Part shown: piece by piece, positions 488 to 41,827 of the stretch
Numbering within the stretch: position 1 is the stretch's first letter
How the letters are laid out: every line of letters starts with the position of its first letter
Assembly (NCBI GenBank): GCA_964036195.1
Contig: OZ038453.1
Location: 930,001-994,000, forward strand
Length of the DNA stretch: 64,000 nucleotides
From: Sphaerolaimus hirsutus
Lineage: Eukaryota; Nematoda; Chromadorea; Monhysterida; Sphaerolaimidae
Direction of reading: 5' to 3'
The notes under the pieces: generated by a model
Told to the model about the DNA's origin: nothing
Seen by the model: only the letters and a program-made list of their open reading frames with translations
Database searches by the model: none
Made by a program: the position numbers and the translations under genes

Positions 488-489
488 TA

Positions 490-7620: not shown

Positions 7621-7634
7621 TGCCAATATACCTA

Positions 7635-8041: not shown

Positions 8042-8230
8042 TAAATTGTTTTCCACTTTGGCGCATGTGCACTTCAAAATGGCCCCAATACTACCTATTT
8101 TCTCGCGTTTATTACCATTTTTGTGTGTGAAAAAGCGTATTCTCTACTATGAATTTCACGAAAATTTCTGACGAAATAATAAACCCCCCTCGAAATACCC
8201 CCCCCCCCCTCCAGAATGATGTACATCATG

Positions 8231-13150: not shown

Positions 13151-16100
13151 AATGGCACTGGTTGGTGTCGCGCCTCCACTTTCAATCAGGTTTTTCAATT
13201 CCAACTTTCCGGCCTTCGGCAACCTGGAAATTTTTTGCGATTTAAAAAAAAATCCAATTTCCTGATAAATAATTGTAATTATATTCGATTGGATGTATTT
13301 GCATACAGTTTATGTGTCGGTATTGACAGCGCATACACTAGTTGACACGTGTGTCAACTGGGCAGTGCCAAGCCCTGTAAAGTGTAAAGTAAAGTGTCAA
13401 ATGTAAAGTCAAATGCAAAGTAAAGTGTCAATTGTCATGCAAAGTTCAGTAATAAAATCTTTTCTTTTTTGTTTTGATTGGCACTTTACATTGCATTTGA
13501 CTTTACTTTGACACTTCACTTTAGACCCCGTTTACACGGATTTTTTGTGACGACTCGACAACAATAAAACGTTCAATAAGTTGAGTAAAACGTTCCATAT
13601 TCATTAGAAAAAGTGGTCAAGTATACCTTCTATCTAGGCGAATATGCACGCCAAATTGCAGAATTGTGCTTGCAGCTCAAGAGTTATACCGTATTTCCTC
13701 AAATACCCCCCCTCTCGGTAGCACTATGAAACAATCACCCCCGCGGGGTATTTCGAGGAAATACGGTATATTTACATTCGAAAACATTTAGCTATTGTCG
13801 CTGGCTGTCGGAAGACTGTCCGACTACTGCAAAAGTGTGTGTGTAGGGTCCTTTAAACAACTCACGCGCGTTTGATTACAGTCAAAAGTTGTTTCCCGAG
13901 TTTGCTAATCATTTTTGCCGGCTACGCTTGTTTTTGTTGCTTTCGGGAAAAATTGACGAAATTTAGCGCTGGTACGAATGCTGAAATTAAAAAAAACAAC
14001 AGTATTGATGTGTACGTTTCCTTGTATTTTTCGGGGGAAAACGATAAATGGTTTGAAAATGGCGCCATACACTGGATGTCAACTGGTTTTGGTGTCAAGT
14101 CAATTTTGGTTCAATTTAGGTCACGGGACAATTTTCAAGTGCACATGCGGCAATGTTGGAAAGAATCAATATTGCCATGTGCATTAATTGAACATAGTTT
14201 CATAGCCGTCAACGAAACTCTGAATGGAGACGAGTTGACATCCGATGACTCCCGATGTCAACTGAGCTGACCGGTTTTTACATTAGGTTAATGTGTTGAA
14301 CTAAAATCGAGTTGACACCAAACCCAGTTAACATCCAGTGTGTGTGGCGCCAGTGGGCCAGTTTGGAAAGTGTAAAAAGGGTTTTTGAATGTGTTTAAGG
14401 ACTTTTGACACTTTGCATGACATTAGATATTTTACAGGGTTCGGGAGTGGATCCTGGTGGAAATTGCGCCAGTGGATAAGTGGCAAGAAAAGGTGATGCA
14501 TCTTCAATGTTAAAATCAAAAGACGAGGAAAATGAATTAATGCAAATACCGTATTTGCTTGAAAAATCCCCCTGGGGCATTATAATTTCCTCAGACATTT
14601 TTGATGGGGGAACTATTCGAGGGGGAAATTAATCAAGGGGGGAAATTACGATTTCGTCAAAATTTTCGAGCATGTTTCGATCAAGTCATTTCACGACATG
14701 TGCATCATTAACACACACAATAAAGTGCCATTTTTGTTAAAATTAGGCACAACAAATTGATCAAATCTCTTAAGGGGGAAGTATTCAAGGGGGCCTATTT
14801 TTTCCTCACTCGTCTTACGGGGGGGAATTATTTAAGGGGGAACTATTCAAGCAAATACGGTACTTGTCAACTTGCTGAATTTCCCCATGGTTGTGGACTG
14901 GCGGTAAGATTTCAAGTACTTAATATGGAGACACTTTATTTTACTTAACTTGAAAGTTATTGTACACTTTTACAAGTCACATATGTACCTATTGAAAGTA
15001 AAGATATAATCTTACCTTGATGAAGTCTCGGAAAAAGTTTGTGTCTAATTGATACAACTGAAGTAAATTTACATCGGTAAAGTTTCTCTTAAATATTCAA
15101 GGCTGAGCGTATTTTCCGTATTTTAATTAAAATTTTCTTACGCTGGTTTCACGTTTTACTGATTGATGGGTCAAATGTACCTAATTTAATGATGTGCATT
15201 TACGTTACGAGAAAGTATAAAACATTGGACAAAATTTAAATGGTTTCAGTGCCAATTACCGTATTTCTTCTAATATAAGGGCGCCCCTCTTTTTTTCGTC
15301 AACTTTTCAGTAATTCTTTTTCATGTTCTACCAAGGTTTTTCAAAGTGTTACGTCACAGACAGTTCATAGAATGACGATACATAGAGTTCAGTACATTCA
15401 ACATTTGAGGTTAAAATACCTAGCACCAAATCAATGGACCAAAGCCACTCAATCATAGCATCCGCTGATATATTTTCATTTTTTATGCACTTGGCACAAT
15501 TCCAACACTTTGTGTACCTTCTATTGGAGACCGCCCTTCTATTTATTTCGTGGCCCAAATTAAGTCGAAAAAGTGTACCTTCTATTAGAGACGTCCTTCT
15601 ATTAGCAAAAATACGGTAACAAGATAATTGCAGGTTGTCAAAATTGCTTATAATTGCAGGGTTATCAAAATCGGCAATTTTGATGCGGCCGAAATTTTCC
15701 GCAACGTAAAATTGGGCCCACCTTTTTTGACGTCGGTTGCACTCCCGACGGCAGTTGTAACATTTTTATGCGATCAAATGGCACTAAATGGAGAAAACTA
15801 ATAAACCCATTAATCGAACTGGCGATAAGAAAGTGTCAAAAAATCACCCGGTAGAACGGCAGGTAGAAATCATGTTGGGAGTGTGCCAAAACACAAAAAT
15901 AATACCGTATTTCCTCGAAATACCCCCCGGGGGGTGATTGTTTCATAGTGGTCCCGAGAGGGGGGGATTAAACGAGGGGGGGGTTATTATTTCGCCAGAA
16001 ATTTTTTCAAATCCTAGTACAAATTCGTCGTTTGTGATGTACACTGGGGTAGAAAAATGCATCAATAACTGACATGTAAAGACTCCTGTAGACTAATATT

Positions 16101-16481
16101 AGTACGTAGATGGTATAAACACTGTTCTAACGTGATTCCGACATTGTTTTAACGTGTGTTCTGCACTACGCAGAACACAAACTGCAGTATTTGTCATGTA
16201 CGTTCTCTTTACACTCAATCTGGGGGGGTATTTCGAGGGGGGGGGGTGATTGTTTCATAATGGTCTCGAGAGAGGGGGGGTCAAACGAGGGGGGGGGGGT
16301 ATTTCGAGGAAATACGGTAAACACATTAAAAGCATCGATACACTGTTTTTATCAATACAGTGTGTGCCTAGGGCCAATGCATTTGGTTCGTGGTAAGGGA
16401 ATGCCATTTTTTCAATTTTCAAACACTACAACGTATCATTGGTTTGTTTTAAAAATGGCCGTTACTTTTTTCTGCAAGTAA

Positions 16482-17040
16482 TTGAGGCGTCCAATTCTAA
16501 AAGTCGACAAGTCACATGCCCATATGGCAAAATGCCACATTTGACACTTTTAGGGAAAAATGCAAAAAAAATGGGCAAGAAGTCGACAAGTCCACTTACC
16601 TTTTGGGCTAAAAGTCGACAAGTCCACCTTCCGCAGCCTTTTTTATGGGAAACAAACGCAAGAAATGTGATAAGTCCATCATGGACACCGATTTCTAAAA
16701 GTCAACAAGTCCATAAATTTCCCACAAGGCAGGCGTTGCGCCGGCGGGAACAAAAATGTTCTCGAGTGCAAGAAGTCGACAAGTGCATTTTCCTCCCCGA
16801 AACGGTTTTGTTCTGTCCGAGTAGAATTTTATAGACACCCAATTTTCCATTATATTATACGTAGAGAGCAGGGGCTGAAAATTTGACACTTTATTGTTAA
16901 CATTTGGAACTTATTGTTGAGCATGAGAGAGCCCCATTGGACACGCACCAAGGAACTGGAATTGGAAATGAAACTTAAAATGCGATTTACTCAAAATCGC
17001 ATTTTGTGGACTTGTCGACATTTAGAATTAGACGCCTCAA
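16482..17040. mobile_element. TTGAGGCGTCC element, U2 copy
   Basis: Shorter than the U1 copy (559 bp) through loss of about 80 bp near the left end. TTAA follows at 17041-17044; the left flank reads GTAA. Confidence 0.72.
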
Positions 17041-17120
17041 TTAAATTACCAAGGTCGTTGTAATCTATCTCTCTGACTCAATTGTGCAAATTTTGGGCCC
17101 TGCACACACCAGGTGCCACC

Positions 17121-18005
17121 CCCAGACCCTGTAAAATGTCAAATGTCATGCAAAGTGTCTAAAGTCATGGAAAATGCCCTGCAAAATGGCAGCTCGGTTG
17201 GCACTAGTGATGGAAAAGCACCAGAAAAAAGGGCGCCAGGCGCCAATGGCGCCATGGCGCCATTCGGAAACTGGGCGCCAAGCGCCAAGGGCGCCACAGA
17301 AAATGGGTGCCAGGCGCCAAGGGCGCCACGGAAAGAGGGCGCCATGCTCAAAACGTGCAAACAACACACTGTGCAAACAACAAAAACAACAAACACATCT
17401 CCCTATAACTGTCATGCACACATTCACTTCGTTATCCACGTTCTCCAGGATGTAGTGAACAAAAGGACTAGCAACGATTTTTGGATAAAGTCATACCCAC
17501 GTTGAATTCCAACACGATGAAAATTGTCATTTGACAAAAAAGTGTATTCACTTCAATCATGTTTTCTGTACACAATTTTTTTTTTCAAATGGACGAAAAC
17601 GGAATTGCAGCGATTTGAACCCGTTGATTTACGGGTTTGCATGTTAGACGGTCCATCATTCTCAGCTTCTGATCCGACAGAAGTGTCTGACGAACTGTTG
17701 TACAAAAGATTTTCATCTAATCGCGACCAGTTCGTAATTTTTCCAGCGAATTTCGTTCATGTACTGCTCGCTTTTTCATTTTTGTGCATTGATGCAGCAC
17801 TCACCTTGAAACCCTGCTGGCGCCATTTTGGCGCCCTTTTAAGGCAGGGCGCCAGGCGCCAAGGGCGCCACGGAAACGGGCGCCAAGCGCCAATGGCGCC
17901 ATTCCATCACTAGTTGGCACTCACCTCAACTCGGTAGCCAATTTGCAGGGCATTTTCCATGACTTTGACACTTTGCATGACATTTGACATTTTACAGGGT
18001 CTGGG
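17121..18005. repeat. Foldback FB-1 with hAT-A, U2 copy
   Basis: Same arrangement as in U1, with CCCAGACCCTGTAAAATGTC at the left and its inverse at the right. Confidence 0.82.
17205..17912. mobile_element. hAT-A, U2 copy, 708 bp
   Basis: Ends TAGTGATGG/CCATCACTA with the duplication GTTGGCAC at 17197-17204 and 17913-17920. Lacks the insertion-duplication found in U1 and U4, so it shows the ancestral middle region. Confidence 0.9.
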
Positions 18006-19210
18006 ACTGCCCCCAGTTGACAAGGAGATTGGTTGTCAACTGGGACTGGTTTCCATTCAAGTTGCGAATATTTGATGCGTCGCCCAACCAGGTTCAAATG
18101 CGCATACCGTATTTCTTCTAATCGAACGACATACCTCCAACACAAGGTCATTACAGGTTTTGGCGCCTTTTTTCACCCACCTACAGAAACATAAAACGGC
18201 AACCTCCAATAGAACGGCAGCTTCCAATAGAACGACAGCTTCCAATAGAACGACAGGTATAAATTACGTTGTGAGTGTTTGAAGACGCACAGATGTTTGA
18301 AAAATGAGTGGTGTGGTGAGGACATAAACGTGTTCAGAATTATAATTCTGGGGTGGTTTTCACATTTGTTTTTGTGAATTCATGCTGTGATATAAAAATG
18401 TTGTTTCATCAAATGGACAATGTGTGAAAAGGATTAGTGAAAAATTGAATGGCAGCCTAAAATAGAGACATACCTCTCATTGAACGGCACCTCCAATATA
18501 ACGGCGGGTAAGTTGACGAAAAAATAAAACACCTTCAATTAGAAGAACTACGGTGCCAATATACCTACCGTATTTACTCGAATAATTTCCCCAGGGAATT
18601 TTTTTTTCGTCAGACATTTTTGAGGGGGGAATTATTCAAGTGGAGGGATTATTATTTCATCACAATTTTCAAGCATGTTTTTATCACACTACATACACAT
18701 GTATGCCCTGTTTCCATCGGTAGTGCACATAACATTGCATCTTTGCACTCCGATGTACTGCATTTCCATTCCATGAATCAAAGTACACACCGATCTTTTG
18801 CATGCTTTCACTTGATCGATTCGTTTTTGTTAAAAGAATGTGAATGATCTACCTTCCGTCATTGGGGGGGGGGGGAATTATTCAAGCGGGGGAATTATTT
18901 TTTCCTCACTCATCTAACACTGGGGAATTATTCGAGGGGGGAATTATTCAAGTGGGGGGAATTATTCGATTAAAAACGGTAAATTGTTTTTCCACATTGG
19001 CGCATGTGCACTTCAAAATGGCCCCAATACTACCTATTTTCTCGCGTTTATTACCATTTTTGTGTGTGAAAAAGCGTATTCTCTACTACGAATTTCACGA
19101 AAATTTCTGACGAAATAATAACCCCCCCCCCGTCGAATAAACCCCCCCTCGAATTACCCCCCCCCCTCAAATTTTGCTGGCGAAATAATAAACCCCCATG
19201 GGGTCCCAGA

Positions 19211-19364
19211 CCCAGACCCTGTAAAAAGCCCTGTAAAATGTCAAATGTCATGCAAAGTGTCTAAAGTCATGGAAAATGCCGTGCAAAATGGCAACTCGGT
19301 TGCCATTTTGCATGACTTTTGACACTTTGCATGACAGATGACAGGGCTTTTTACAGGGTCTGGG
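19211..19364. repeat. Foldback FB-1, U2 copy
   Basis: Starts within a doubled CCCAGACCCAGACCC and ends TTTACAGGGTCTGGG. The element directly follows the truncated poly-C module, marking the deletion that distinguishes U2 and U5. Confidence 0.8.
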
Positions 19365-20283
19365 AGTGCCCCCTGGCACAACCCCGGATTGTCATCTGGC
19401 GACCTAGATTGAACTCAATCGAGTTGACATCCAGTGTGTGTGGCGCCTTAAGGGGCTGTTTCAAACGTTTTTGTTTTCGTTTCCGCGAAATACGTAAAAA
19501 AATATTTCTAGTTCATTTCATAAACGTCTCGAATCGAAAGTGGTGAACAATGTGAGAAAAATGGATTCTAGTTCTAAATCTATGTTTGATCACTCTAAAT
19601 CTCAATTTAATCACCCCACTATTTGTTTCTTTACATGCCTATGGTAAGAGTATTTCGCAAAAGGAAACTCAAATGCGATTTTTAGTAAATACAATATCAT
19701 TTTCACTTGTCATTTGCTTACACAACTCTGAAATACCCACAGTACCGAGTACTTTTTCCTAATTTAAAAAAAAAGTATTTAGATCAGGTATCTATATTGG
19801 ATCTAAGTATCAACTATGAGTACAATCGAATGTACGATCGTTGTGTACACTTGCAATGGATCAGGCCATTGCCACGCCATACTTGTGCTGCAGATTTATT
19901 CCAGCCGAGTGATTAAATTGTCCATTTTTAACCAGGTCGTTCAATTCCTTCTTTCCGGCCGGGATTCCGGCCAACCTGGAAATTTTTTGCGATTTTTGAG
20001 AAAAAAAGAAATCTAATTTCCTGATAAATATTTGTAATTATATTCGATTGTATGTATTTGCATACAGTTTATGTGTCGGTATTGACAGCGCATACACTAG
20101 TTGACACGTGTGTCAACTGGGCAGTGCCAAGCCCTGTAAAGTGTAAAGTAAAGTGTCAAATGTAAAGTCAAATGCAAAGTAAAGTGTCAATTGTCATGCA
20201 AAGTTCAGTAATAACATCTTTTCGTTTTTGTTTTGATTGGCACTTTACATTGCATTTGACTTTACGTTTGACACTTCACTTTA

Positions 20284-20772
20284 GACCCCGTTTACACGGA
20301 TTTTTTGTGACGACTCGACAACAATAAAACGTTCAATAAGTTGAGTAAAACGTTCCATATTCATTAGAAAAAGTGGTCAAGTATACCTTCTATCTAGGCG
20401 AATATGCACACCAAATTGCAGAATTGTGCTTGCAGCTCAAGAGTTATACCGTATTTCCTCAAATACCCCCCCTCTCGGTAGCACTATGAAACAATCACCC
20501 CGCGGGGTATTTCGAGGAAATATGGTATATTTACATTCGAAAACATTTAGCTATTGTCGCAGGCTGTCGGAAGACTGTCCGACAACTGCAAAAGTTACCA
20601 AACGCCTTTAACTCATGAGCTACAAGCACGATTGTGCAATTTGACATGCATATTCGCCTACGTCAGATGTACAGTTGTACACTTTTTCTCATAAATAATG
20701 AACCTTTTTACTCAATTTTTTCAACTTTTTAATGTTTTCGAATCGTCACAAAAAATGCGTGTAAACGGGGCC
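20284..20772. mobile_element. PIF/Harbinger-like MITE, 489 bp
   Basis: GACCCCGTTTACACGGATTT at the left matches the inverse of ...CGTGTAAACGGGGCC at the right. TTA flanks it on both sides (20281-20283, 20773-20775). A 3-bp TTA target and GGCCCNGTTTACACG-like ends fit PIF/Harbinger. It contains a TA-flanked CCGTATTT MITE (20449-20525). No transposase. Confidence 0.82.
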
Positions 20773-23101
20773 TTACACTATTCAGGGCTTTGGACTCGGC
20801 CCCAGGCGTGTGTGTGGGGCCCAAACAACTCACGACTTTCTGACTGCAGTTATGAATGCCCTCGTCTGTTTGTCGTACTTGTGTGCCATTTTTGCCGGCT
20901 ACGCTTGTTTTTGTTGCTTTCGGGAAAAATTGACGAAATTTAGCGCTGGTACGAATGCTGAAATATTTATTAAAAAAATCAGTATTTATGTGTACGTTTC
21001 CTTGTATTTTTCGGTGGAAAAACGATAAATGGTTTGAAAATGGCGCCATACACTGGATGTCAACTGGTTTTGGTGTCAAGTCAATTTTGGTTCAATTTAG
21101 GTCGCGGGAGAATTTTCAAGTGCACATGCGGCAATGTTGGAAAGAATCAATATTGCCATGTGCATTAATTGAACATAGTTTCATAGCCGTCAACGAAACT
21201 CTGAATGGAGACGAGTTGACATCCGATGACTCCTGATGTCAACTGAGCTGACCGGTTTTTACATTAGGTTAATGTGTTGAACTAAAATCGAGTTGACACC
21301 AAACCCAGTTAACATCCAGTGTGTGTGGCGCCAGTGGGCCAGTTTGGAAAGTGTAAAAAGTGTTTTTGAATGTGTTTAAGGACTTTTGACACTTTGCATG
21401 ACATTAGATATTTTACAGGGTTCGGGAGTGGATCCTGGTGGAAATTGCGCCAGTGGATAAGTGGCAAGAAAAGGTGATGCATCTTCAATGTTAAAATCAA
21501 AAGACGAGGAAAATGAATTAATGCAAATACCGTATTTGCTTGAATAATCCCCCTGGGGCATTATAATTTCCTCAGACTTTTTTGATGGGGGAACTATTCG
21601 AGGGGGAAATTAATCAAGGGGGGAAATTACTATTTCGTCAAACTTTTCGAGCATGTTTCGATCAAGTCATTTCACGACATGTGCATCATTAACACACACA
21701 ATAAAGTGCCATTTTTGTTAAAATTAGACACAACAAATTGATCAAATCTCTTAAGGGGGAATTATTCAAGGGGGGTCTATTTTTTCCTCACTCGTCTTAC
21801 AGGGGGGGGAATTATTTAAGGGGGAACTATTCAATCAAATACGGTACTTGTCAACTTGCTGAATTTCCCCATGGTTGTGGACTGGCGGTAAGATTTCAAG
21901 TACTTAATATGGAGACACTTTATTTTACTTAACTTGAAAGTTACTGTACACTTTTACAATTCACATATTTACCTATTGAGAGTAAAGATATTTATAATCT
22001 TACCTTGATGAAGTCTCGGGAAAAGTTTGTGTCTAATTGATACAACTGAAGTAAATTCACATCGGTAAAGTTTCTCTTAAATATTCAAGGCTGAGCGTAT
22101 TTTCCGTATTTTAATTAAATTTTCTTACACTGGTTTCACGTTTTACTGATTGATGGGTCAAATGTACCTAATTTAATGATGTGCATCTACGTAAAAGTAA
22201 TAAACATTGGACAAAATTTAAATAGTTTCAGTGCCAATTACCGTATTTCTTCTAATATAAGGGCGCCCTTCTATTTTTCGTCAATTTTTTTAACCCACCC
22301 TTCTATTGGAGACCGCCCTTCTGTTTTTTCGTCAACTTTTCAGTAATTCTTTTTCATGTTCTACCAAGGTTTTTCAAAGTGTTACGTCACAGACAGTTCA
22401 TAGAATGACGATACATAGAGTTCAGTACATTCAACATTTGAGGTTAACATACCTAGCACCAAATCAATGGACCAAAGCCACTAAATCATAGCATCCGCTG
22501 ATATATTTTCATTTTTTATGCACTTGGCACAATTCCAGCACTTTGTGTACCTTCTATTGGAGACCGCCCTTCTATTTATTTCGTGGCCCAAATTAAGTCG
22601 AAAAAGTGTACCTTCTATTAGAGACGTCCTTCTATTAGCATAATTCGGTAACAAGATAATTGCAGGGTTGTCAAAATTGCAGATAATTGCAGGGTTATCA
22701 AAATTGCAGATAATTGCAGGTTATCAAACTTTGATGCGGCCGAAATTTTCCGCAACGTAAAATTGGGCCCACCTTTTTTGACGTCGGTTGCACTCCCGAC
22801 GGCAGTTGTAACATTTTTATGCGATCAAATGGCACTAAATGGAGAAAACTAATAAACCCATTAATCGAACTGGCGATAAGAAAGTGTCAAAAAATGGCGC
22901 CAAAATTCCCCGAAATAATTGGCGCATTTTGGCGCCACACGGCATCCAATAGAACGGCACCCCCAATAGAACGACACCCCCGGTAGAACGGCAGGTAGAA
23001 ATCATGTTGGGAGTGTGCCAAAACACAAAAATATTAAACACATTAAAAGCATCGATACACCGTTTTTATCAATACACTGTGTGCCTAGGGTTCGTGGTAA
23101 G

Positions 23102-24141
23102 CAGGGTTGGTTTTATAAAAATCATTTGTATACAAATTGTATAAAAATTGTATAAAAATGTATTTTTTTAAATTTTATTCTTGTTTCATTTTATTTTATT
23201 CCAAAATAATAATAAAATAATAAAATGGACCATTTTACAAAAAAATTACAAAAATTTTACATAAATTTTGCAAAAAATCAGAATCCTTGCATGCAAGGTC
23301 AGAAAAATGTGATAATTTTACCTAAACATGAAAAACGTGTGACAAATTTTTCCATTACTTTGCAAAAGTTGCATGCAGTAGGTATTGTTAGCTAGTTGTA
23401 AGTGTTAAGTTACAGTTATCGATAAGAGTGGTTTGCATTTTCAGTAGAAGGATTACTGGAGTGTGCTGGGCGCATTTGTAAAACATCATGCAAAGTGTCA
23501 ATTGTCATGACAAATGTAGTAAAGAGTCAATTGGCATCTCAAATGTCAAGCAAAGTATAATTGCCATGACAAATGTTGTGCAGAGTGTAAATTGTGTATC
23601 TGAATCTTATGTTTTGGTATCCAAACCTTATATTTTGGTATCCAAATCTTATGTTTTTGTATCCAAATGTTCACATAAGATTTGGTTACAAAAACAACAA
23701 TATTTGGATACAAAAGATAAGATTTGGATACAATTTGCTTTACAGTTTCCACTTCCATATTTGTCATGATAATTGACACTTTACTTAACATTTTCATGAA
23801 AATTGCCACTTTCCATTCCATTTCATATGACATTTTGACACTTTACATGGCTTGGGACTGCCCCAGCTCCGCGAATGAACAGGTTGAACTATAAACAACA
23901 GAAAAATATTCTTTACAAAAAATATGAATTTTTATACAATTTTTACAAAAATATGAATTTGTATACAATTTTACAAAAAATTTACAAAAATTCGAATTTT
24001 TATACAAATGTTATTTTTATTTTGAAATTTTTTATTTTATTTTATTTTATTCTTCAATTTTCCATTTTATTTTAATTTATTCTTCAATTTTCCATTTTAT
24101 TTTATTTTTTATTTTTATTTTCTGAGTGTTTGCCAACCCTG
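23102..24141. mobile_element. hAT-G, CAGGGTTGG ends, ATAAAA/TTTTATT-rich, 1040 bp
   Basis: Starts CAGGGTTGGTTTTATAAAAA and ends TTTGCCAACCCTG. The flanks GTGGTAAG (23094-23101) and GGTGTAAG (24142-24149) agree at 6 of 8 positions, consistent with an old 8-bp duplication. Subterminal parts are TTTACAAAAATTT and TTTTATTTTATT arrays. A diverged foldback related to FB-1 (23480-23850) sits in the middle. Confidence 0.83.
23480..23850. repeat. Diverged foldback with TATCCAAATC tip repeats
   Basis: CATGCAAAGTGTCAATTGTC at the left pairs loosely with GACAATTGACACTTTAC-like sequence at the right, and the end reads ACTTTACATGGCTTGGGACTG as in FB-1. The tip has tandem TTATGTTTTGGTATCCAAA words and their inverse. 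Non-coding; copy in U6 at about 56392-56775. Confidence 0.65.
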
Positions 24142-24285
24142 GGTGTAAGGCAATGCCATTTTTTCACTTTTCAAACACTACAACGTATCATGTATCACGA
24201 TCGGGGGGAGGGAGGGGGGGGGGGGGCAAAACGTGAGCTGAAATTCCTTTGTTTAAAAATGGGCGTTACTTTTTTCTGCAATTAA

Positions 24286-24493
24286 TTGAGGCGTCCAATT
24301 CTAAAAGTCGACAAGTCCAAAATATGAAAATTTTGAGTTAGGCCCGGAAACGTCATCTGGGGCTACTCCTGCACATTTTTCATAATTTTCCATAAATTTT
24401 TTGACTTCACATGCCCATATGGCAAAGTACCAAATTTGACATTTTTAGGGAAAAATGCAAAAAATTTGGGCAAGAAGTCGACAAGTCCACTTA
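24286..24493. mobile_element. TTGAGGCGTCC element, truncated, U3
   Basis: The left end is preceded by TTAA (24282-24285). After AAGTCGACAAGTCCACTTAC the sequence changes to CCGTAAATCCTCGAATAAGT and the right end is absent. The same truncation occurs in U6 from 57198. Confidence 0.7.
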
Positions 24494-24499
24494 CCGTAA

Positions 24500-24885
24500 A
24501 TCCTCGAATAAGTCCCCCCCCCTCGAAAAACTCCCCCCCCCCCCTCGAATAACTCCCCCTCTAAGCAGGCTGAGGAAAAAATAACCCCCCCCCTCGAATA
24601 ACTCCCCCCTATTTTATGGGTGGGAAAGAAGTCCACGTATAAAAAAACGTATTTATGTATAGTCGGCAGACATGATACTATACAATGAGTCGCATGATGT
24701 CATATCATGCACGCTGTATCCAACCCGTAGAACTCTGTTTTGGTGACTCGTGCTTACGCATATACGGAATGAAACTATTCAATTGTGCCCGCACAATTCA
24801 AACCCCCGTCAAAGTGTAGTTGAGTTTTTTGGCATGATGCCATCCAAGCGTCGTCTGGATCTGAATAAATACAAAGCGGGAACGT
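24500..24885. other. Captured piece of array-flanking DNA in U3
   Basis: Poly-C words to about 24612 are followed by ~270 bp seen only here and in U6 (57530-57803), where it leads into single-copy DNA. It contains ATGATGCCATCCAAGCGTCG (24834), which opens a short basic frame starting MMPSKRRLDLNKYKAG. Here the frame is joined to an internal unit sequence (CGGGATCCAATATAACGG), so this copy is a dead end. Confidence 0.5.
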
Positions 24886-26787: not shown

Positions 26788-26957
26788 TAGGGTGTCAACT
26801 TTCCATTTTCCATTTCTGTTTTCCAGAGGAAATTTTTTACCCTTTCCGTTTCGTTATCTGGCCGATGAAAATGTTTACCCTTTCCGTTTTCCGGCAGCTT
26901 AAAATTTTTACCCTTTCCATTTTCCATGTTTCCATAAAAAATATGTTTGACACCCTA
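26788..26957. mobile_element. hAT-C, TAGGGTGTCAA ends, 170 bp
   Basis: Starts TAGGGTGTCAACTTTCC and ends ATGTTTGACACCCTA. The perfect 8-bp duplication CAACTATG is at 26780-26787 and 26958-26965. The interior is reiterated TTTACCCTTTCCGTTTTCC, the same word that fills the 1.7-kb copy at 43655-45348. Confidence 0.9.
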
Positions 26958-27229
26958 CAACTATGGATATTAGTCAAAATTTTTGCCCCTGGGATAGATA
27001 GATAGAAAGCTGACTGGCATCCAGGATAGATATATAGCTGGGTGATTCAGGGGGGGGGGGCGATTTGTTATTTATGTGCCTATATACTTATTTCAAGCTA
27101 TTTTTCACCTGTTTTTATCAAATTTTCTCTCTTTTATTTCTTCTACACCTTGAAAAAACCAGCCCCCCTGATCTTTCTCCAGTAAAGCAATTTACTACCT
27201 ACTGTAAATACTCTACTAGTACAACTGTC

Positions 27230-27898
27230 TAGGGTTGGGACGATATATCGTATCAAATATTGAATATTGGATATCGACTATTTTTTCATATCGAATATTG
27301 ATATCGAAAATTTTGAAAAAATATCAAGCATTTTTTCGATATTTTTCAATATTCTTCCCTTCCCTGGCCTGACCTATTGCACATTTAGAAAGTTATTTTG
27401 AAGGCAGTTATCAAAAATTCTGTGCACATGCATGCACTTTGTCATCACATGACATGTATTTCCATTTTACCAGTTGCAACCACCTCTAATCTTGTGCAGA
27501 TGCAATCACAAATGTCCACGTCAGAGTATGTGCCATGGCACTGGCACCATGGTGCATTTTCTTTACTACATCCATCAAATTTCAGGGTGTGGGGTGAGTT
27601 TATGTAAATTTTATGTGAATTTGTACAATCTACTCTTCAGTAAGGATATGATCAATTATGTTTGTGACCAAATGGAAATACAATATGCCACTCAAGATAT
27701 GCCTTGCCTTAGGAAAAGCAAAATATCGAAATATCAAAAATATCGAAATATCAATATCAAATATCGAGCATATCTTCAGATCAAATATCGATATCGAATA
27801 TCGAGGGTCCATATTGTATCGATATCGAATATCGAGTTCCAGAAAAAAATATCGAATATCAAATATCGATATCGAAAAGTCATATCGTCCCAACCCTA
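27230..27898. mobile_element. hAT-E, TAGGGTTGGGACGATAT ends, ATATCGA-rich, 669 bp
   Basis: Starts TAGGGTTGGGACGATATATC and ends CATATCGTCCCAACCCTA. The perfect 8-bp duplication CAACTGTC is at 27222-27229 and 27899-27906. Both sides are arrays of ATATCGA and AATATCG; the centre (27360-27710) is plain sequence. An open frame of 182 codons crosses the right part, but it is generated by the ATATCGA array. Confidence 0.92.
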
Positions 27899-28279
27899 CA
27901 ACTGTCACATTGTTTTTAAGGGTCGCTATTGGAGGGGTCAAATTTTATTTTGCTATTATTCACAAAATAGGTTTATAAGAACATGCAGTACAATAGCTGA
28001 AAATAGGCAGTTAGACACATGATTCCGTGATTTTGGAGGTGAATACCTATAAAAAGGCATGCAAATAAGCGTTTTTCAGCAAAAATTTGGGTATACTTTC
28101 TGAAAAATCGTTTCAGATAGCTAGATCCCTTTGTTATGTCGGGGGTTTATGTTTTTCTGTTTTTGTTTTATGTTTTTCTCTGGGGGTCACACTATTACAG
28201 AGGGTCACATAAAACTCGCACTACATGTACAAAGGGGTCTCACCATTGGTTGGATCGCTTATTGGAGGGGGGTCATAAT

Positions 28280-28899
28280 TAGGGTTGGAAAAAAACGTGT
28301 TTTCTAACTCCTTGTTTTTTAAAAGCTACCAGATATGGTTATGGGTCCGCATATATAGGTACTTTAGACAACTGGCAGTACTTTGTGATGTTATATATGA
28401 CCATATAATGGCTGTGGAGCCATATGAGAGCGTTATAGTGGTACTTTGTGTCAAAAATATCCATTTTTTGTCAACATGTTCATATATCGCCTTATAGTCG
28501 AATGTTTGTGACTTCAGGTGAAGTTTGGCATGGAATAGTGATCAAACAAGGTTATAAAATAAAGTTGTTACTTTAGTGATCTTACACACTGTGGATATAC
28601 ATGTAAGCACTTTACCTGAATATTATATGCTACAGCAACATATGACGGCTTATTAACCCATGGTAGCATATAGAAATGGATGCTTTGATACAAAAAATGC
28701 CACAAAACCAATGAAAACAGCTACCAATGTCAATTTGTGTGTGAAATTGCGTGCTTGCACACAGAAAAATCATGCAAAATACCTAGTGCTGAGTACTAAA
28801 AATGTTGGCCAATGTTTAAAACATTTTGGGCATCATGTTTTTTTGAAAACAACGTTTTTTTAAATAAAAAACGTTTAAAAAAAACGTCAGCCAACCCTT
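28280..28899. mobile_element. hAT-F, TAGGGTTGGAAAAAAACG ends, 620 bp
   Basis: Starts TAGGGTTGGAAAAAAACGTG and ends AAACGTCAGCCAACCCTT, the last base deviating from the expected A. The perfect 8-bp duplication GTCATAAT is at 28272-28279 and 28900-28907. AAAACGT words flank a plain AT-rich centre. Confidence 0.88.
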
Positions 28900-31798: not shown

Positions 31799-31971
31799 CC
31801 CAGACCCTGTAAAAAGCCACGTAAAATGTCAAGTGTCACGCAAAGTGTCCAAAGTCACGGAAAATGCCCTGCGAAATGGCAACCGAGTTGCCATTTTGCA
31901 GGGCATTTTCCATGAATTTTGACACTTTGCGTGACATTTGACAATTTACATGGCTTTTTACAGGGTCTGGG
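31799..31971. repeat. Foldback FB-1 spanning the U3/U4 phase point
   Basis: Complete hairpin with tip GGCAACCGAGTTGCC. Window base 1 corresponds to 31856 inside it. Confidence 0.85.
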
Positions 31972-33364
31972 AATGGCACTGGTTGGTGTCGCGCCTCCAC
32001 TTTCAATCAGGTTTTTCAATTCCAACTTTCCGGCCTTCGGCAACCTGGAAATTTTTTGCGATTTAAAAAAAATCCAATTTCCTGATAAATAATTGTAATT
32101 ATATTCGATTGTATGTATTTGCATACAGTTTATGTGTCGGTATTGACAGCGCATACACTAGTTGACACGTGTGTCAACTGGGCAGTGCCAAGCCCTGTAA
32201 AGTGTAAAGTAAAGTGTCAAATGTAAAGTCAAATGCAAAGTAAAGTGTCAATTGTCATGCAAAGTTCAGTAATAAAATCTTTTCTTTTTTGTTTTGATTG
32301 ACACTGTACATTGCATTTGACTTTACGTTTGACACTTCACTTTAGACCCCGTTTACACGGATTTTTTGTGACGACTCGACAACAATAAAACGTTCAATAA
32401 GTTGAGTAAAACGTTCCTTATTCATTAGAAAAAGTGGTCAAGTATACCTTCTATCTAGGCGAATATGCACGCCAAATTGCAGAATTGTGCTTGCAGCTCA
32501 AGAGTTATACCGTATTTCCTCAAATACCCCCCCCTCTCGGTAGCACTATGAAACAATCACCCCCCACGGGGTATTTCGAGGAAATACGGTATATTTACAT
32601 TCGAAAACATTTAGCTATTGTCGCAGGCTGTCGGAAGACTGTCCGACTACTGCAAAAGTGTGTGTGTAGGGTCCTTTAAACAACTCACGCGCGTTTGATT
32701 ACAGTCAAAAGTTGTTTCCCGAGTTTGCTAATCATTTTTGCCGGCTACGCTTGTTTTTGTTGCTTTCGGGAAAAATTGACGAAATTTAGCGCTGGTACGA
32801 ATGCTGAAATAAAAATAAAAAAAACAGTATTTATGTGTACGTTTCCTTGTATTTTTCGGGGGAAAACGATAAATGGTTTGAAAATGGCGCCATACACTGG
32901 ATGTCAACTGGTTTTAGTGTCAAGTCAATTTTGGTTCAATTTAGGTCACGGGACAATTTTCAAGTGCACATGCGGCAATGTTGGAAAGAATCAATATGGC
33001 CATGTGCATTAATTGAACATAGTTTCATAGCCGTCAACGAAACTCTGAATGGAGACGAGTTGACATCCGATGACTCCTGATGTCAACTGAGCTGACCGGT
33101 TTTTACATTAGGTTAATGTGTTGAACTAAAATCGAGTTGACACCAAACCCAGTTAACATCCAGTGTGTGTGGCGCCAGTGGGCCAGTTTGGAAAGTGTAA
33201 AAAGTGTTTTTGAATGTGTTTAAGGACTTTTGACACTTTGCATGACATTAGATATTTTACAGGGTTCGGGAGTGGATCCTGGTGGAAATTGCGCCAGTGG
33301 ATAAGTGGCAAGAAAAGGTGATGCATCTTCAATGTTAAAATCAAAAGACGAGGAAAATGAATTA

Positions 33365-33802
33365 CCGTATTTCCTCGAAATACCCCCGGGGGGTTTATTG
33401 TTTCAGAGTGAGAATTTTGAGGGGGGGTTAAACGAGGGGGGGGGTATTTCGAGGGGGGGGTTTATTATTTCGCCAGAAATTTTTTGAAAACCAAGTACTA
33501 AATTGTCGTCTGAAACGTACGTCGAAAATGCAACAAAAATCGCCAGTTATAAGACTCTAAGCACTTGTATAAGTGTGTAGATGTATAATCACTGTTCTCA
33601 CATAACAGAGTCATCGTTTTTAACGTGTGTTTTGCATTACCCAGATGACAAACCGCAGCCTTTGTCATTTACGTTCTCTATACACTGAATTTGGGGGGGG
33701 GGTATTTCGAGGGGGGGGTTTATAAGTTCATAGTGTCCATTTTGAGGGGGGGTATTTCGAGGGGGGGTATTTCGAGGGGGGGGGTATTTCGAGGAAATAC
33801 GG
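33365..33802. mobile_element. TA-flanked CCGTATTT element, U4 copy
   Basis: Identical in position and sequence to 1510-1947. Shared only by U1 and U4, so it inserted after the units diverged but before the block duplication. Confidence 0.88.
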
Positions 33803-35352
33803 TAATGCAAATACCGTATTTGCTTGAAAAATCCCCCTGGGGCATTATAATTTCCTCAGACATTTTTGATGGGGGAACTATTCGAGGGGGAAATTAATCA
33901 AGGGGGGAAATTACGATTTCGTCAAAATTTTCGAGCATGTTTCGATCAAGTCATTTCACGACATGTGCATCATTAACACACACAATAAAGTGCCATTTTT
34001 GTTAAAATTAGGCACAACAAATTGATCAAATCTCTTAAGGGGGAAGTATTCAAGGGGGCCTATTTTTTCCTCACTCGTCTTACAGGGGGGAATTATTTAA
34101 GGGGGCACTATTCAAGCAAATACGGTACTTGTAAACGTGCTGAATTTCCCCATGGTTGTGGACTGGCGGTAAGATTTCAAGTACTTAATATGGAGACACT
34201 TTATTTTACTTAACTTGAAAGTTATTGTACACTTTTACAAGTCACATATGTACCTATTGAGAGTAAAGATATAATCTTACCTTGATGAAGTCTCGGAAAA
34301 AGTTTGTGTCTAATTGATACAACTGAAGTAAATTTACATCGGTAAAGTTTCTCTTAAATATTCAAGGCTGAGCGTATTTTCCGTATTTTAATTAAAATTT
34401 TCTTACGCTGGTTTCACGTTTTACTGATTGATGGGTCAAATGTACCTAATTTAATGATGTGCATTTACGTTACGAGAAAGTATAAAACATTGGACAAAAT
34501 TTAAATGGTTTCAGTGCCAATTACCGTATTTCTTCTAATATAAGGGCGCCCCTCTTTTTTTCGTCAACTTTTCAGTAATTCTTTTTCATGTTCTACCAAG
34601 GTTTTTCAAAGTGTTACGTCACAGACAGTTCATAGAATGACGATACATAGAGTTCAGTACATTCAACATTTGAGGTTTAAATACCTAGCACCAAATCAAT
34701 GGACCAAAGCCACTCAATCATAGCATCCGCTGATATATTTTCATTTTTTATGCACTTGGCACAATTCCAACACTTTGTGTACCTTCTATTGAAGACCGCC
34801 CTTCTATTTATTTCGTGGCCCAAATTAAGTCGAAAAAGTGTACCTTCTATTAGAGACGTCCTTCTATTAGCAATAATACGGTAACAAGATAATTGCAGGT
34901 TGTCAAAATCGGCAATTTTGATGCGGCCGAAATTTTCCGCAACGTAAAATTGGGCCCACCTTTTTTGACGTCGGTTGCACTCCCGACGGCAGTTGTAACA
35001 TTTTTATGCGATCAAATTGCACTAAATGGAGAAAACTAATAAACCCATCAATCGAACTGGCGATAAGAAAGTGTCAAAAAATCACCCGGTAGAACGGCAG
35101 GTAGAAATCATGTTGGGAGTGTGCCAAAACACAAAAATAATACCGTATTTCCTCGAAATACCCCCCGGGGGGTGATTGTTTCATAGTGGTCCCGAGAGGG
35201 GGGGATTAAACGAGGGGGGTATTTCGAGGGGGGGGGGGTATTATTTCGCCAGAAATTTTTTCAAATCCTAGTACAAAATCGTCGTTTGTGATGTACACTG
35301 GGGTAGAAAAATGCATCAATAACTGACATGTATAGACTTCTGTAGACTAATA

Positions 35353-36824
35353 AACACCTTCCCGATCAAGTCCGGCCCCCAATTTTTTACTTTACTTCTG
35401 ACGTCCTATCTACAGTTCTAGGACGCACCAGAAGCTGAAACTTGGGGTAGATATTGGTGCAACCCCCCTCTACTTCGCATGAATTGAAGGGGTCGCGGCG
35501 ACCCCCTACAGGGTGGGTCGCCGAGTGCAAAAAAAATTTGCAGCTTTTTTAGTGTCCCACACAGGTCCGGCCCCCACTGATTTCTTACACTGCGGGTGCC
35601 GTACCTCCAGCTGTGGGAGGGGTATAAATCTAAAATTTTGGGGATGTGTCCCCTACACCCCTCCCCTACTATACACTGGCCAGGCGGTTTTTGGCAACTC
35701 ACCACAGTGTGGGGTGCAACGTTCAAAATTTAATAAAATGTTACTGTCCCACACAAGTACAGCATCCATATGAATTTCAAAAAATGGACACTTTTGTGTT
35801 GTTTAAACACTAATGTGGTTGACAATGTGGAATAAGCATGAAATATCCTCTAAAAATATATTTTCCAACCTAAAACTGCCCAGCACATGAACCCCACCCC
35901 CCAAGTGGGTGACAAAAAAATCACTTTTCACAACTTTTTTATTAGACACTTGAACTGCTGGTTTACAATAATTGATAGGTTAGGGTTAAAGGTTTCAAAT
36001 TGTGTAAAGAACCTTACCTCCAAAATTCCTTCATAAGAAAATTTGCTGGGGGTAAATTTAAAATCGTAAATTTTGCCTATTTTTGTTCCTGCAATGATGC
36101 CATTTTTACAATTTGAAATTCACCCCCAGCAAATTTTCTTATGAAGGCATTTGTGAGGTAAGGTTGTTTACACAATTTGAAACCTTTAACCCTTCCCTAT
36201 AAATTATAGTAAACCAGCAGTTCAAGTGTCTAATAAAAAAGTTGTGAAAAGTGATTTTTTTGTCAGCCACCCGGGGGGATAAGATTCATGTGGTGGGCGG
36301 TTTTGGGTGGGATAAAATATTTTAGCGGATATTTCAGGTTTATGTCACATTATCAAATGCTCAAGTGTTAAAACAACACAAAAGTGTTCATTTTTTTAAA
36401 TGAAATTAGGTGCTGGACTTGTGTGGGACCGTAATGTTTTAACAAACTTTTATCGCTGTGCCCCACACTGTGGTGAGTTGCCAAAAACCGCCTGGCCAGT
36501 GTATAGTAGGGGAGGGGTGTTGGGGACACATCCCCAAAATTTTAGATTTATACCCCTCCCACAGCAGGAGATCCGGCACCCGCAGTGTAGGAAATCAAGT
36601 GGGGGCCGGACCTGTGCGGGACAGTGAAAACACCGCAATTTTTTTTCACATATATGGCGACCCCCTCTATAGTGTATCGCCGCTGCCCCATTTATTCATG
36701 AGGGGTAGTGGGGGGTTGCGCCTATGTACCACCCAAGTTTTAGTTTTCCATCCCTCCCACAACCGGAGATATGGCCTGCGAAGTGAAAAAAAAATAGGCG
36801 GCCGGACTTGATCGGGAAGGTGTT
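35353..36824. mobile_element. Long-arm foldback transposon, U4 copy
   Basis: Same as 3498-4969, shifted by 31855, inside TA element 35143-37029. Arms of ~700 bp are retained without visible change. Confidence 0.87.
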
Positions 36825-37193
36825 TATTAGTGCGTAGATCGTATAAACACTGTTCTAACGTGATTCCGACATTGTTTTAACGTGTGTTCTGCACTACGCA
36901 GAACACAAACTGCAGTATTTGTCATGTACGTTCTCTTTACACTCAATCTGGGGGGGTATTTCGAGGGGGGGGGTGATTGTTTCATAATGGTCTCGAGAGA
37001 GGGGGGGGGGGTATTTCGAGGAAATACGGTAAACACATTAAAAGCATCGATACACCGTTTTTATCAATACAGTGTGGGCCTAGGGCCAATGCATTTGGTT
37101 CGTGGTAAGGGAATGCCATTTTTTCAATTTTCAAACGCTACAACGTATCATTGGTTTGTTTTAAAAATGGCCGTTACTTTTTTCTGCAATTAA

Positions 37194-37845
37194 TTGAGGC
37201 GTCCAATTCTAAAAGTCGACAAGTCCAAAATATGAAAATTTTGAGTTAGGCCCGGAAACGTCATCTGGGGCTACTCCCGCACATTTTTTTCATAATTTTC
37301 CATAAATTTTGTGACCTCACATGCCCATATGGCAAAATGCCAAATTTGACACTTTTAGGGATAAATGCAAAAAAATTGGGCAAGAAGTCGACAAGTCCAC
37401 TTACCTTTTGGGCTAAAAGTCGACAAGTCCACCTTCCGCAGCCTTTTTTATGGGAAACAAACGCAAGAAATGTGATAAGTCCATCATGGACAAAGATTTC
37501 TAAAAGTCGACAAGTCCATAAATTTCCCATAAGGCAGGCGTTGCGCCGGCGGGAACAAAAATGTTCTCGAGTGCAAAAAGTCGACAAGTGCATTTTCCTC
37601 CCCGAAACGGTTTTGTTCTGTCCGAGTAGAATTTTATAGACACCCAATTTTACCATTATATTTACATAGAGAGCAGGGGCTGAAAATTCGACACTTTATT
37701 GTTAACATTTGGAACTTATTGTTGAGCATGAGAGAGCCCCATTGGACACGCACCAAGGACCTGGAATTGGAAATGAAACTTAAAATGCGATTTACTCAAA
37801 ATCGCATTTTGTGGACTTGTCGACTTTTAGAATTAGACGCCTCAA
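37194..37845. mobile_element. TTGAGGCGTCC element, U4 copy
   Basis: Same as 5339-5990 shifted by 31855, including the degraded right TAAA. Confidence 0.75.
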
Positions 37846-37925
37846 TAAAATTACTACGGTCGTTGTAATCTATCTCTCCGACTCAATTGTGCAAATTTTA
37901 GACCCTGCACACACCAGGTGCCACC

Positions 37926-38946
37926 CCCAGACCCTGTAAAATGCTCTGTAAAATGTCAAATGTCATGCAAAGTGTCTAAAGTCATGGAAAATGCCCTGCA
38001 AAATGGCAGCTCGGTTGGCACTAGTGATGGAAAAGCACCAGAAAAAAGGGCGCCAGGCGCCAATGGCGCCATGGCGCCATTCGGAAACTGGGCGCCAAGC
38101 GCCAAGGGCGCCACAGAACATGGGTGCCAGGCGCCAAGGGCGCCACGGAAAGAGGGCGCCATGCTCAAAACGTGCAAACAACACACTGTGCAAACAACAA
38201 AAACAACAAACACATCTCCCTATAACTGTCATGCACACATTCACTTCGTTATCCACGTTCTCCAGGATGTAGTGAACAAAAGGACTAGCAACGATTTTTG
38301 GATAAAGTCATACCCACGTTGAATTCCAACACGATGAAAATTGTCATTTGACAAAAAAGTGTATTCACTTCAATTATGTTTTCGACGTTTCCAGATGACG
38401 TTTCCGGGCCTAACTCGAAATTTTCATATTTGGACTTGTCGACTTTTAGAATTGGACGCCTCAATTGTCATTTGACAAAAAAGTGTATTCACTTCAATTA
38501 TGTTTTCTGTTCACAATTTTTTTTCTTCAAATGGACGAAAACGGAATTGCAGCGATTTGAACCCGTTGATTTACGGGTTTGCATGTTAGACGGTCCATCA
38601 TTCTCAGCTTCTGATCCGTCAGAAGTGTCTGACGAACTGTTGTACAAAAGATTTTCATCTAATCGCACCAGCTCGTAATTTTTCCAGCGAATTTCGTTCA
38701 TGTACTGCTCGCTTTTTCATTTTTGTGCATTGATGCAGCACTCACCTTGAAACCCTGCTGGCGCCATTTTGGCGCCCTTTTAAGGCAGGGCGCCAGGCGC
38801 CAAGGGCGCCACGGAAACGGGCGCCAAGCGCCAATGGCGCCATTCCATCACTAGTTGGCACTCACCTCAACTCGGTAGCCAATTTGCAGGGCATTTTCCA
38901 TGACTTTGACACTTTGCATGACATTTGACATTTTACAGGGTCTGGG
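37926..38946. repeat. Foldback FB-1 with hAT-A, U4 copy
   Basis: Same arrangement as 6071-7091. Confidence 0.84.
38022..38853. mobile_element. hAT-A, U4 copy, 832 bp
   Basis: Same as 6167-6998, with GTTGGCAC on both sides and the same 43-bp insertion-duplication. Confidence 0.9.
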
Positions 38947-41827
38947 ACTGCCCCCAGTTGACAAGGAGATTGGTTGTCAACTGGGACTGGTTTCCATTCA
39001 AGTTGCGAATATTTGATGCGTCGCCCAACCAGGTTCAAATGCGCATACCGTATTTCTTCTAATCGAACGACATACCTCCAACACAAGGTCATTACAGGTT
39101 TTGGCCCTTTTTTCACCCACCTACATAAACATAAAACGGCAACCTCCAATAGAACGGCAGCTTCCAATAGAACGACAGGTATAAATTACGTTGTGAGTGT
39201 TTGAAGACGCACAGATGTTTGAAAAATGAGTGGTGTGGTGAGGACATAAACGTGTTCAGAATTATAATTCTGGGGTGGTTTTCACATTTGTTTTTTTGAA
39301 TTCATGCTGTGATATAAAAATGTTGTTTCATCAAATGGACAATGTGTGAAAAGGATTAGTGAAAAATTGAATGGCAGCCTAAAATAGAGACATACCTCTC
39401 ATTGAACGGCACCTCCAATATAACGGCGGGTAAGTTAACGAAAAAATAAAACACCTTCAATTAGAAGAACTACGGTGCCAATATACCTACCGTATTTACT
39501 CGAATAATTTCCCCAGGGAATTTTTTTTTCGTCAGACATTTTTGAGGGGGGAATTATTCAAGTGGAGGGATTATTATTTCATCACAATTTTCAAGCATGT
39601 TTTTATCACACTACATACACATGTATGCCCTGTTTCCATTGGTAGTGCACATAACATTGCATCTTTGCACTCCGATGTACTGCATTTCCATTCCATGAAT
39701 CAAAGTACACACCGATCTTTTGCATGCTTTCACTTGATCGATTCGTTTTTGTTAAAAGAATGTGAATGATCTACCTTCCGTCATTGGGGGGGGGGGGAAT
39801 TATTCAAGCGGGGGAATTATTTTTTTCCTCACTCATCTAACACTGGGGAATTATTCGAGGGGGGAATTATTCAAGTGGGGGGAATTATTCGATTAAAAAC
39901 GGTAAATTGTTTTTCCACATTGGCGCATGTGCACTTCAAAATGGCCCCAATACTACCTATTTTCTCGCGTTTATTACCATTTTTGTGTGTGAAAAAGCGT
40001 ATTCTCTACTACGAATTTCACGAAAATTTCTGACGAAATAATAAACCCCCCCTGTCGAATAAACCCCCCCCTCGAATTACCCCCCCCCCCCTCAAATTTT
40101 GCTGGCGAAATAATAAACCCCCATGGGGGTATTTCGAGGTAATACGGTATATATGGCGTACAGTGCTATTATTTCCAGGATTTTAGATTTTTAATTTTGT
40201 AGATAATTGACAGTATTAGGACTGATTTACATATAAAATATCAGTGTGCTTGAAAAATGCTTAATTTTGGCCTACATGTGAACCGGGTTTACATGCGCAC
40301 CGGCACAGACACCTCGAAATGCCCCCCCCCCCCGTTGGAATGATGCGCATCGTGTATAGTGATGTAAAGGCACCGGGGAACCGGTGCTCCGGTGCTGCGC
40401 ACCGAAGGGCACCAGCACCGGTGCTGGTGCAATGCCCTCGCAATTTTTAAAGGTGCCCTGCCGGTGCCGGTGCCATTTTTTCAGAATAGCACCGGTGCCA
40501 GTGCGGTGCGGTGACTGTTTTTTCGGTGCCCCAGGGTGCCATGTGCCCCTTTCACGCGATGGGAAAGGTGCCGGTGCCCCCCGATCCGGTCTACATGTGC
40601 ACCGGGTTTACATGCGCAGCGAGTTATCGCCGTTTTAACAACTATGGTAATTACAATCAAAATAACATTTCACCATCGCATCAAATTTGTTTGTCAAATG
40701 AACATAATCTGAACAAATCTACTCAATGTGCCAACAGAAGTGACTCAGATGAGCTATTTTCATGAATGATTATCACTTTTGAGTATTTTAATTAGGTAGG
40801 GCCATTCCAACTTGAAAATATTGTGTGGGATGACAAACGGCACTATTTTTGGAGAAAACTGATCGAGGGGCATGCTTCTAAGCGGCTACGCATAGTGCAC
40901 AGATTCGATTTGCATATGCAAATGCGAGCGCGGCAAATGACTGCATTGGGCCAACACACGCTAGTTGACATCCCAAATTTGTGTCAACTCAATGTCAACT
41001 AAATAACACACAATAATTTTTTAAAGCTTCACACTTAACAGAAACAATAAAACTTTTATTTAATTATATTTTATGGCCTGAGTGAATTCCTGCCTGGGAT
41101 GAGACGATAGTCCAGGCGGCAGTCCCAGACCCTGTAAAAAGCCCTGTAAAATGTCAAATGTCATGCAAAGTGTCTAAAGTCATGGAAAATGCCGTGCAAA
41201 ATGGCAACTCGGTTGCCATTTTGCATGACTTTTGACACTTTGCATGACAGATGACAGGGCTTTTTACAGGGTCTGGGAGTGCCCCCTGGCACAACCCCGG
41301 ATTGTCATCTGGCGACCTAGATTGAACTCAATCGAGTTGACATCCAGTGTGTGTGGCGCCTTAAGGGGCTGTTTCAAACGTTTTTGTTTTCGTTTCCGCG
41401 AAATACGTAAAAAAATATTTCTAGTTCATTTCATAAACGTCTCGAAGCGAAAGTGGTGAACAATGTGAGAAAAATGGATTCTAGTTCTAAATCTATGTTT
41501 GATCACTCTAAATCTCAATTTAATCACCCCACTATTAGTTTCTTTACATGCCTATGGTAAGAGTATTTCGCAAAAGGAAACTCAAATGCGATTTTTAGTG
41601 AATACAATATCATCTTCACTTGTCATTTGCTTACACAACTCTGAAATACCCACAGTACCGAATACTTTTTCCTACTTTAAAAAAAAAGTATTTAGATAAG
41701 TATCTATATTGGATCTAAGTATCAACTATGAGTACAATCGAATGTACGATCGTTTTTTACACTTGCAATCGATCAACCCAGCACCAAGTTATGCCTGGCC
41801 ATCAGATGCAACACACCTGGGGGCAGT

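Follow-up and report, generated by a model that had tools for sequence, protein, structure and literature searches.

Nonautonomous hAT-like elements in a nematode genomic window, several with arms that carry arrays of a family-specific word on the same strand

The window analysed here, a single 64-kb stretch of Sphaerolaimus hirsutus DNA on which all results rest, is eukaryotic in character, as seen from its many inverted-repeat elements, a remnant of BEL/Pao type and an open frame of 499 aa. Between positions 1 and 57803, shared segments of up to ~8 kb occur in several copies that are 92–99.8% identical (for example, 99.8% for 1–8205 versus 31856–40071 and 98.3% for 16512–24885 versus 49405–57803), and some segment copies carry transposon insertions that others lack. 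A segment of ~1.5 kb (3491–4976 and 35346–36831) is 82.6% self-complementary and holds a 196-bp TTAA-flanked inverted-repeat element (4135–4330, also 35990–36185). A satellite of ~116-bp units at 58608–59702 adjoins a 29-bp array at 58435–58544. The 499-aa frame (62499–63998, minus strand), which leaves the window and sits in a higher-GC stretch, matches the AAA_12 helicase family (E = 1.1e-25), and an Rfam search of the window gave no match.

The short terminal inverted repeats (TIRs) of hAT transposons start with [TC]A[GA]NG. A loose scan, in which inverted ends of whatever sequence were accepted if flanked by exact 8-bp duplications, yielded 41 pairs, compared with 5, 9 and 6 in three block-shuffled windows, and recovered B1, B2, C1, C2, D and E together with all four copies of the A insertion. 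A second scan, limited to [TC]A[GA]NG ends, yielded 11 pairs (1, 0 and 0 in shuffled windows), comprising these families again and family H, which is absent from the first-pass annotation of this DNA. The elements are listed below with their target-site duplications (TSDs).

6167–6998, plus strand: A1, 832 bp, TSD GTTGGCAC, arrays of the word GGCGCC
8231–8666, minus strand: H2, second H copy, exact TSD CATGATGT
10275–11447, minus strand: B1, TSD ACCGGCAC, of the B2 family, inverted and at another site, 82.7% identity to B2
17205–17912, plus strand: A2, 708 bp, duplicate of the A insertion
23102–24141, plus strand: G, ends CAGGGTTGG, A+T-rich repeats (TACAAA/TTTTATT), TSD agreeing at 6 of 8 positions, a weak case
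26788–26957, minus strand: C2, 170 bp, TIR TAGGGTGTCAA, exact TSD CAACTATG; array (TTTCC on the plus strand) with no separate centre, units matching those of C1 on the opposite strand
27230–27898, plus strand: E, 669 bp, TIR TAGGGTTGGGACGA, word ATATCGA, exact TSD CAACTGTC
28280–28899, plus strand: F, 620 bp, ends TAGGGTTGG/AAGGGTTGG, TSD GTCATAAT, no array
38022–38853, plus strand: A3, 832 bp, duplicate of the A insertion
41917–43090, plus strand: B2, 1,174 bp, TSD CAACCGAG, TTTTCGAA arrays, a TA-flanked element nested in the centre
43655–45348, plus strand: C1, 1,694 bp, TSD GTCAAGTA, CGGAAAA arrays in both arms, 40-bp unit
46001–46581, plus strand: D, 581 bp, TSD ATGTCAAC, ATCCCG arrays in both arms
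48170–48612, plus strand: H1, CAGGG ends, TSD CACCCGGT, no array adjacent to the TIR
50094–50834, plus strand: A4, 741 bp, duplicate of the A insertion, with 35 bp more in its left array than A1–A3 have

In seven families (A–F and H), the inverted ends are short and the 8-bp TSDs exact; A1–A4 are four copies of a single insertion with the exact duplication GTTGGCAC. The end sequences of the hAT-type elements include TAGGGTGTCAA, TAGGGTTCAAA, TAGGGTTGGGA, TAACGATGG and TAGTGATGG. Some ends are imperfect: the right end of F starts with AAGGG and that of H1 with CAAGG. The F ends (28280 and 28899) were set by hand and are flanked by a perfect TSD. The A copies differ by a 124-bp stretch with a 45-bp direct repeat at its boundaries, which is present in A1 and A3 and missing from A2 and A4.

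Because segment copies without the insertion exist, empty sites were available within the window: one for B1, two for B2, at least five each for C1 and D, and three, with no mismatch, for H1. None was found there for A, C2, E or H2, nor for F and G when tested with ends 1–3 bases off (the same ends served for F and G in the arm alignment and CpG analyses below; the 6-mer shuffle test used corrected ends). The empty sites indicate that ends, arrays and centre were inserted as one piece in B, C1 and D, and for these an origin of the arrays by independent satellite insertion is rejected. End motifs, 8-bp duplications and empty sites support the assignment of A–F and H as nonautonomous hAT-like elements, bearing out the first-pass annotation on this point. 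A Pfam scan of ten long frames of the window detected no hAT domain. With respect to the usual description of MITEs (short, noncoding and of high copy number), the elements seen in the window are 170–1,694 bp long and C1 contains coding remnants.

Word arrays were assessed by counting copies of the commonest 6-mer in the two arms against 300 dinucleotide shuffles. None of the 300 shuffles reached the observed counts in C1 (39 copies; shuffle maximum 15), D (35; 12), A1 (GCGCCA, 20; 7), E (ATATCG, 20; 11), B2 (TCGAAA, 18; 12) or C2 (6; 4). The same holds for G (10; 9), which is marginal. As a control, 500 pairs of 200-bp segments outside elements gave a median of 4, a 95% mark of 7 and a maximum of 13. 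In the centres the same 6-mers occur 0 (A1), 3 (B2), 1 (C1), 0 (D) and 0 (E) times, and C2 has no centre; arm limits were set by eye where arrays stop, so arm/centre contrasts are partly built in. The units are 40 bp long in both arms of C1 and 28–29 bp in both arms of D. F was rejected as an array family (AAACGT, 5 copies, a number reached by 7 of 300 shuffles), and H1, with a top 6-mer of 3 copies reached by 201 of 300 shuffles, has no array and serves as a hAT-like control without the array plan. F and H are thus hAT-like without arrays, so arrays are not needed. Of the at least seven array families proposed earlier, five (A–E) are clear, G is weak and A+T-rich and F drops out; within 26788–28899, where the proposal was made, E fits well, C2 weakly and F, lacking an array, does not. 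The suggestion that the word adjoins the element's own terminal repeat holds, as judged by eye, for C, F and the right end of A; in D and E the terminal repeat itself includes the word, and in B the two are separate.

The first-pass annotation described tandem words on both sides without examining their strand. We aligned left and right arms locally in direct and inverted orientation, with 200 shuffles each. Direct scores exceeded inverted scores in C1 (190 versus 24), D (162 versus 18) and C2 (37 versus 16); no shuffle of 200 reached the direct scores of these three, and their inverted scores lay at shuffle level, being reached by 23 (C1), 63 (D) and 41 (C2) of 200 shuffles. The direct and inverted scores were 77 and 37 for A1, 69 and 39 for A4, 50 and 37 for E, 63 and 52 for G, 55 and 58 for B1, 54 and 56 for B2, and 18 and 24 for F. 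The inverted scores of A and B topped all 200 shuffles, that of E all but 3 of 200 and that of G nearly all, as expected because the words are partly palindromic; B is not directional because its core word is palindromic. Strand counts in the left and right arms were 20:0 and 19:0 for CGGAAA in C1, 15:3 and 17:0 for ATCCCG in D, 10:2 and 7:3 for GCGCCA in A1, and 3:1 and 11:3 for ATATCGA in E; for TTTTCGAA they were 8:0 and 5:4 in B2 and 4:3 and 0:5 in B1. In C, D and A, and less clearly in E, the two arms are direct repeats of each other, not inverted ones.

This orientation bears on the idea that these are foldback elements in which the inverted repeat of each end expanded symmetrically, as in Tetris or Galileo. 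Tandem repeats do adjoin both ends, and the mixed strands of B, together with inverted scores of 58 and 56 that 0 of 200 shuffles reach, agree with such an origin; the shuffle-level inverted scores and unreached direct scores of C1, C2 and D do not. Arms inverted to each other, the mark of foldback elements, are not found in C, D or A nor, on weaker grounds, in E, and B is ambiguous. A symmetric foldback origin is refuted for C and D by their direct arms, and across the families we consider it highly improbable. Same-strand arms are easy to check for and tell these elements apart from foldback transposons.

The earlier proposal extended the array plan to TA- and TTAA-flanked elements, which proved correct for three of six unique TA-flanked elements. 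The TA-flanked set comprised 20 pairs. Three unique elements had direct scores of 62, 30 and 43 versus inverted scores of 15, 13 and 16; those at 1508–1949, 1957–2272 and 15903–16319 have TACCGTATTT ends and carry, in each half, G-run repeats on the same strand. Among the other three, two are without G-runs and one is a mis-pairing. Six TTAA-flanked pairs were found (0 or 1 in each shuffle), and the two clear families among them, which are inverted repeats of the ordinary sort (inverted scores of 92 and 79; direct scores of 16 and 20), were rejected as sharers of the plan. The same-strand plan is therefore common to hAT-like and some TA-flanked elements and not to other transposons here.

The centres offer a view of how two such arms may have arisen. 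In D, the unit variant CCCGGAAAAAT has only two copies, which lie in the two units directly flanking the centre; a single array split by the centre should look like this. C2, which lies on the other strand than C1, is an array from end to end with no centre. The centre of C1 contains a BEL/Pao pol fragment (44121–45211) with a Pfam Peptidase_A17 (Pao) match (E = 1.2e-7) at 44819–45211; a 221-aa frame beside the A17 frame had no significant Pfam match. This centre can be likened to the filler DNA described for maize Ds2 and Ds-l4 in the cited part of that work (PMC3260210) and may have been taken up by gap repair.

Arrays also differ between copies. The left array of A is common to A1, A2 and A3 and 35 bp longer in A4. 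The segment pair that includes A4 is 99.2% identical outside gaps, with 22 indels, seven of them of at least 3 bp; of these seven, two fall in the A array (35 of 57 bp), and the G array has one of 5 bp. In the younger segment pair, which includes A1 and A3, five indels occur, none of them in the arrays. The A4 array thus grew by 35 bp in place, after the segmental duplication. B1 and B2, which are independent insertions, are alike at 340 of 367 arm positions and 301 of 349 positions of their own centre (P = 0.007), in a comparison of one pair with arm limits set by eye and misaligned positions 431–849 left out of the centre; most of the contrast is due to the right arm (alike at 162 of 168 positions, versus 178 of 199 in the left arm). 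A stronger contrast (P = 4.8e-5) that included positions 431–849 was dropped. The likeness of the B arms would fit constraint while the family moved, to the extent that one pair can suggest it.

Passive growth would explain some of this. A slippage-prone repeat could have been captured, or have grown, near an end and hitchhiked as a minisatellite with no role in transposition, an origin proposed for Xenopus miDNA4 in the cited part of that study (PMC12628747). The in-place gain of 35 bp in A4, arms that are direct rather than mirrored, and the ability of F and H to manage without arrays all speak for such hitchhiking. It accounts less readily for arrays of unlike words beside both ends in five families, for B copies that are more alike in their arrays than in their centre (though weakly so) and for the A1/A3 pair, in which no array changed. 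On balance, we regard passive hitchhiking as possible but rather unlikely.

What the words may be is suggested by known hAT systems, as far as the cited portions of the literature describe them. The Ac transposase binds the hexamer AAACGG, present in several copies in the subterminal 200 bp (PMC3260210), and subterminal repeats are CGATTCAT in Herves and AAGT in Hermes (PMC10368747; PMC3143072). On binding arrays, the motifs of hAT-derived BED plus Hermes-type domains mostly differ from protein to protein; most contain CGG or GCGC and some are A+T-rich, and for each of the four transposon-encoded proteins the motif matches subterminal regions of its own element (PMC8097297). The words CGGAAAA, CGGGAT, GGCGCC, TTTTCGAA and ATATCGA fall within this published range (PMC8097297), which is a resemblance and not a test. 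It is plausible that the words are expanded subterminal transposase-binding sites, one per family.

With family H left unmasked, the fraction of word copies in the window lying outside elements was 0/18 for ATATCGA, 4/39 for ATCCCG, 8/38 for TTTTCGAA, 21/48 for CGGAAAA and 39/105 for GGCGCC, and 30/42 for AAAACGT and 42/79 for TTTTATT. The tandem repeat list of the window contains no long free array of these words, so seeding of satellites is not seen here. The window likewise offers evidence neither for nor against an arms race in transposase recognition. Exact-pattern searches of IMG/VR gave 0 hits each for the E end, the D end, the C unit and the TA end. A trimer of the D word was present in nine viral contigs, none resembling a relative (five with one common coding context and four with other GATCCCG runs), and a string of the E word found in one bacterial contig among genome contigs was judged a chance match.

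Several words contain CpG, and the arrays might act as methylation switches that mark elements for silencing or time their transposition. Observed/expected CpG in the arms was 3.93 (B2), 3.76 (E), 2.34 (C1) and 1.64 (D), compared with a median of 0.91, a 95% mark of 1.36 and a maximum of 1.76 in 2,307 control segments; B2, C1 and E exceed all controls and D lies above the 95% mark. Together with low values in the centres of C1 (0.25), D (0.37) and E (0.08), these ratios are what a switch would lead one to expect. However, the arms of A (0.86), C2 (1.26) and G (0.46, one CpG) are not raised in this way, the F value (1.64) comes from 4 CpG, the centres of A1 (1.22) and B2 (1.10) are not low, and any repeated CpG-bearing word raises the ratio. 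A uniform CpG rule is rejected, as A and G do not fit, and a methylation switch appears improbable.

We favour, with a probability of about 0.6, the reading that these are nonautonomous hAT-type elements in which subterminal transposase-binding words grew into one array that was later split by filler. The elements would be moved by hAT-type transposases encoded elsewhere, and the word of each family would most likely be what the BED zinc finger of its transposase recognizes. Slippage or unequal exchange could have turned a few sites next to one end into a single directional array that reaches the other end. Filler DNA, perhaps from gap repair after excision, would later have split this array in the longer copies; we propose that both arms carry the array on the same strand for this reason. 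Counting against this reading are the failure to see a transposase in the frames scanned, the lack of direction in B, the high inverted scores of A and E, the absence of arrays from F and H, and the restriction of the B contrast to one pair.

A broader and more doubtful suggestion is that unrelated families, hAT-like and TA-flanked, converged on one strand-oriented array of landing sites that spans the whole element, the centre having been inserted late, and that this array both gives polarity and attracts transposase. A shared strand would make the two ends non-equivalent, as Hermes needs according to the cited part of that work (PMC10368747), so that the array would give the element polarity. 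If the words are transposase sites, this one genome provides a natural series varying in site number, strand and spacing. It then becomes possible to ask in what way the number of sites and the asymmetry of the ends govern hAT movement, and whether minisatellites arise from arrays of landing sites.

Several known systems share parts of this plan. The TU elements of sea urchins have 8-bp duplications and short tandem repeats beside their ends, as here, but unlike the elements here they have long inverted repeats. Maize Ac/Ds, as presented in the cited part of the source, is similar in its 8-bp duplications, 11-bp ends, subterminal site repeats and unrelated internal filler; in place of its scattered hexamers, the elements here have dense arrays with higher-order units, on the same strand in both arms, with a word for each family (PMC3260210). 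Hermes and Herves likewise have short repeated sites near both ends, where the transposase binds, and their ends are non-equivalent; they differ in being autonomous, in their site sequences and, in the cited accounts, in having no minisatellite-like arrays (PMC10368747; PMC3143072). In Hermes, left-end sites 2–7 are antisense and right-end sites 1–5 are sense (PMC10368747; PMC3143072), and a symmetrised left/left element is inactive (PMC10368747). If the ends are read inward from the tips, the Hermes sites, too, would all be on a single strand of the element.

The Xenopus MITEs Xmix/Xstir and miDNA4, in the cited parts of their descriptions, also contain internal tandem repeats, which are linked to satellites there; they are classified there as Kolobok (TTAA) and Tc1/mariner elements, whereas those here are hAT-like, and unlike Xmix and miDNA4 the element words form no free satellite in the window (PMC6004289, PMC9659126, PMC12628747). 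Tetris and Galileo carry tandem repeats beside their ends, which in Galileo hold binding sites of the THAP transposase (PMC3688188); according to the cited sections both have long inverted repeats, in contrast to the direct arms of C, D, A and E (PMC4079207; PMC3688188). MITE-borne tandem repeats that feed satellites (Xmix/Xstir, miDNA4 and Tetris) and transposase-binding end repeats (Galileo) are thus already known. Among titles and the beginnings of abstracts, a survey whose scope excluded Repbase and most subscription papers, we found no description of several hAT families whose two arms carry a word array on the same strand. Relative to the known MITE-borne arrays, the same-strand plan appears to be new.
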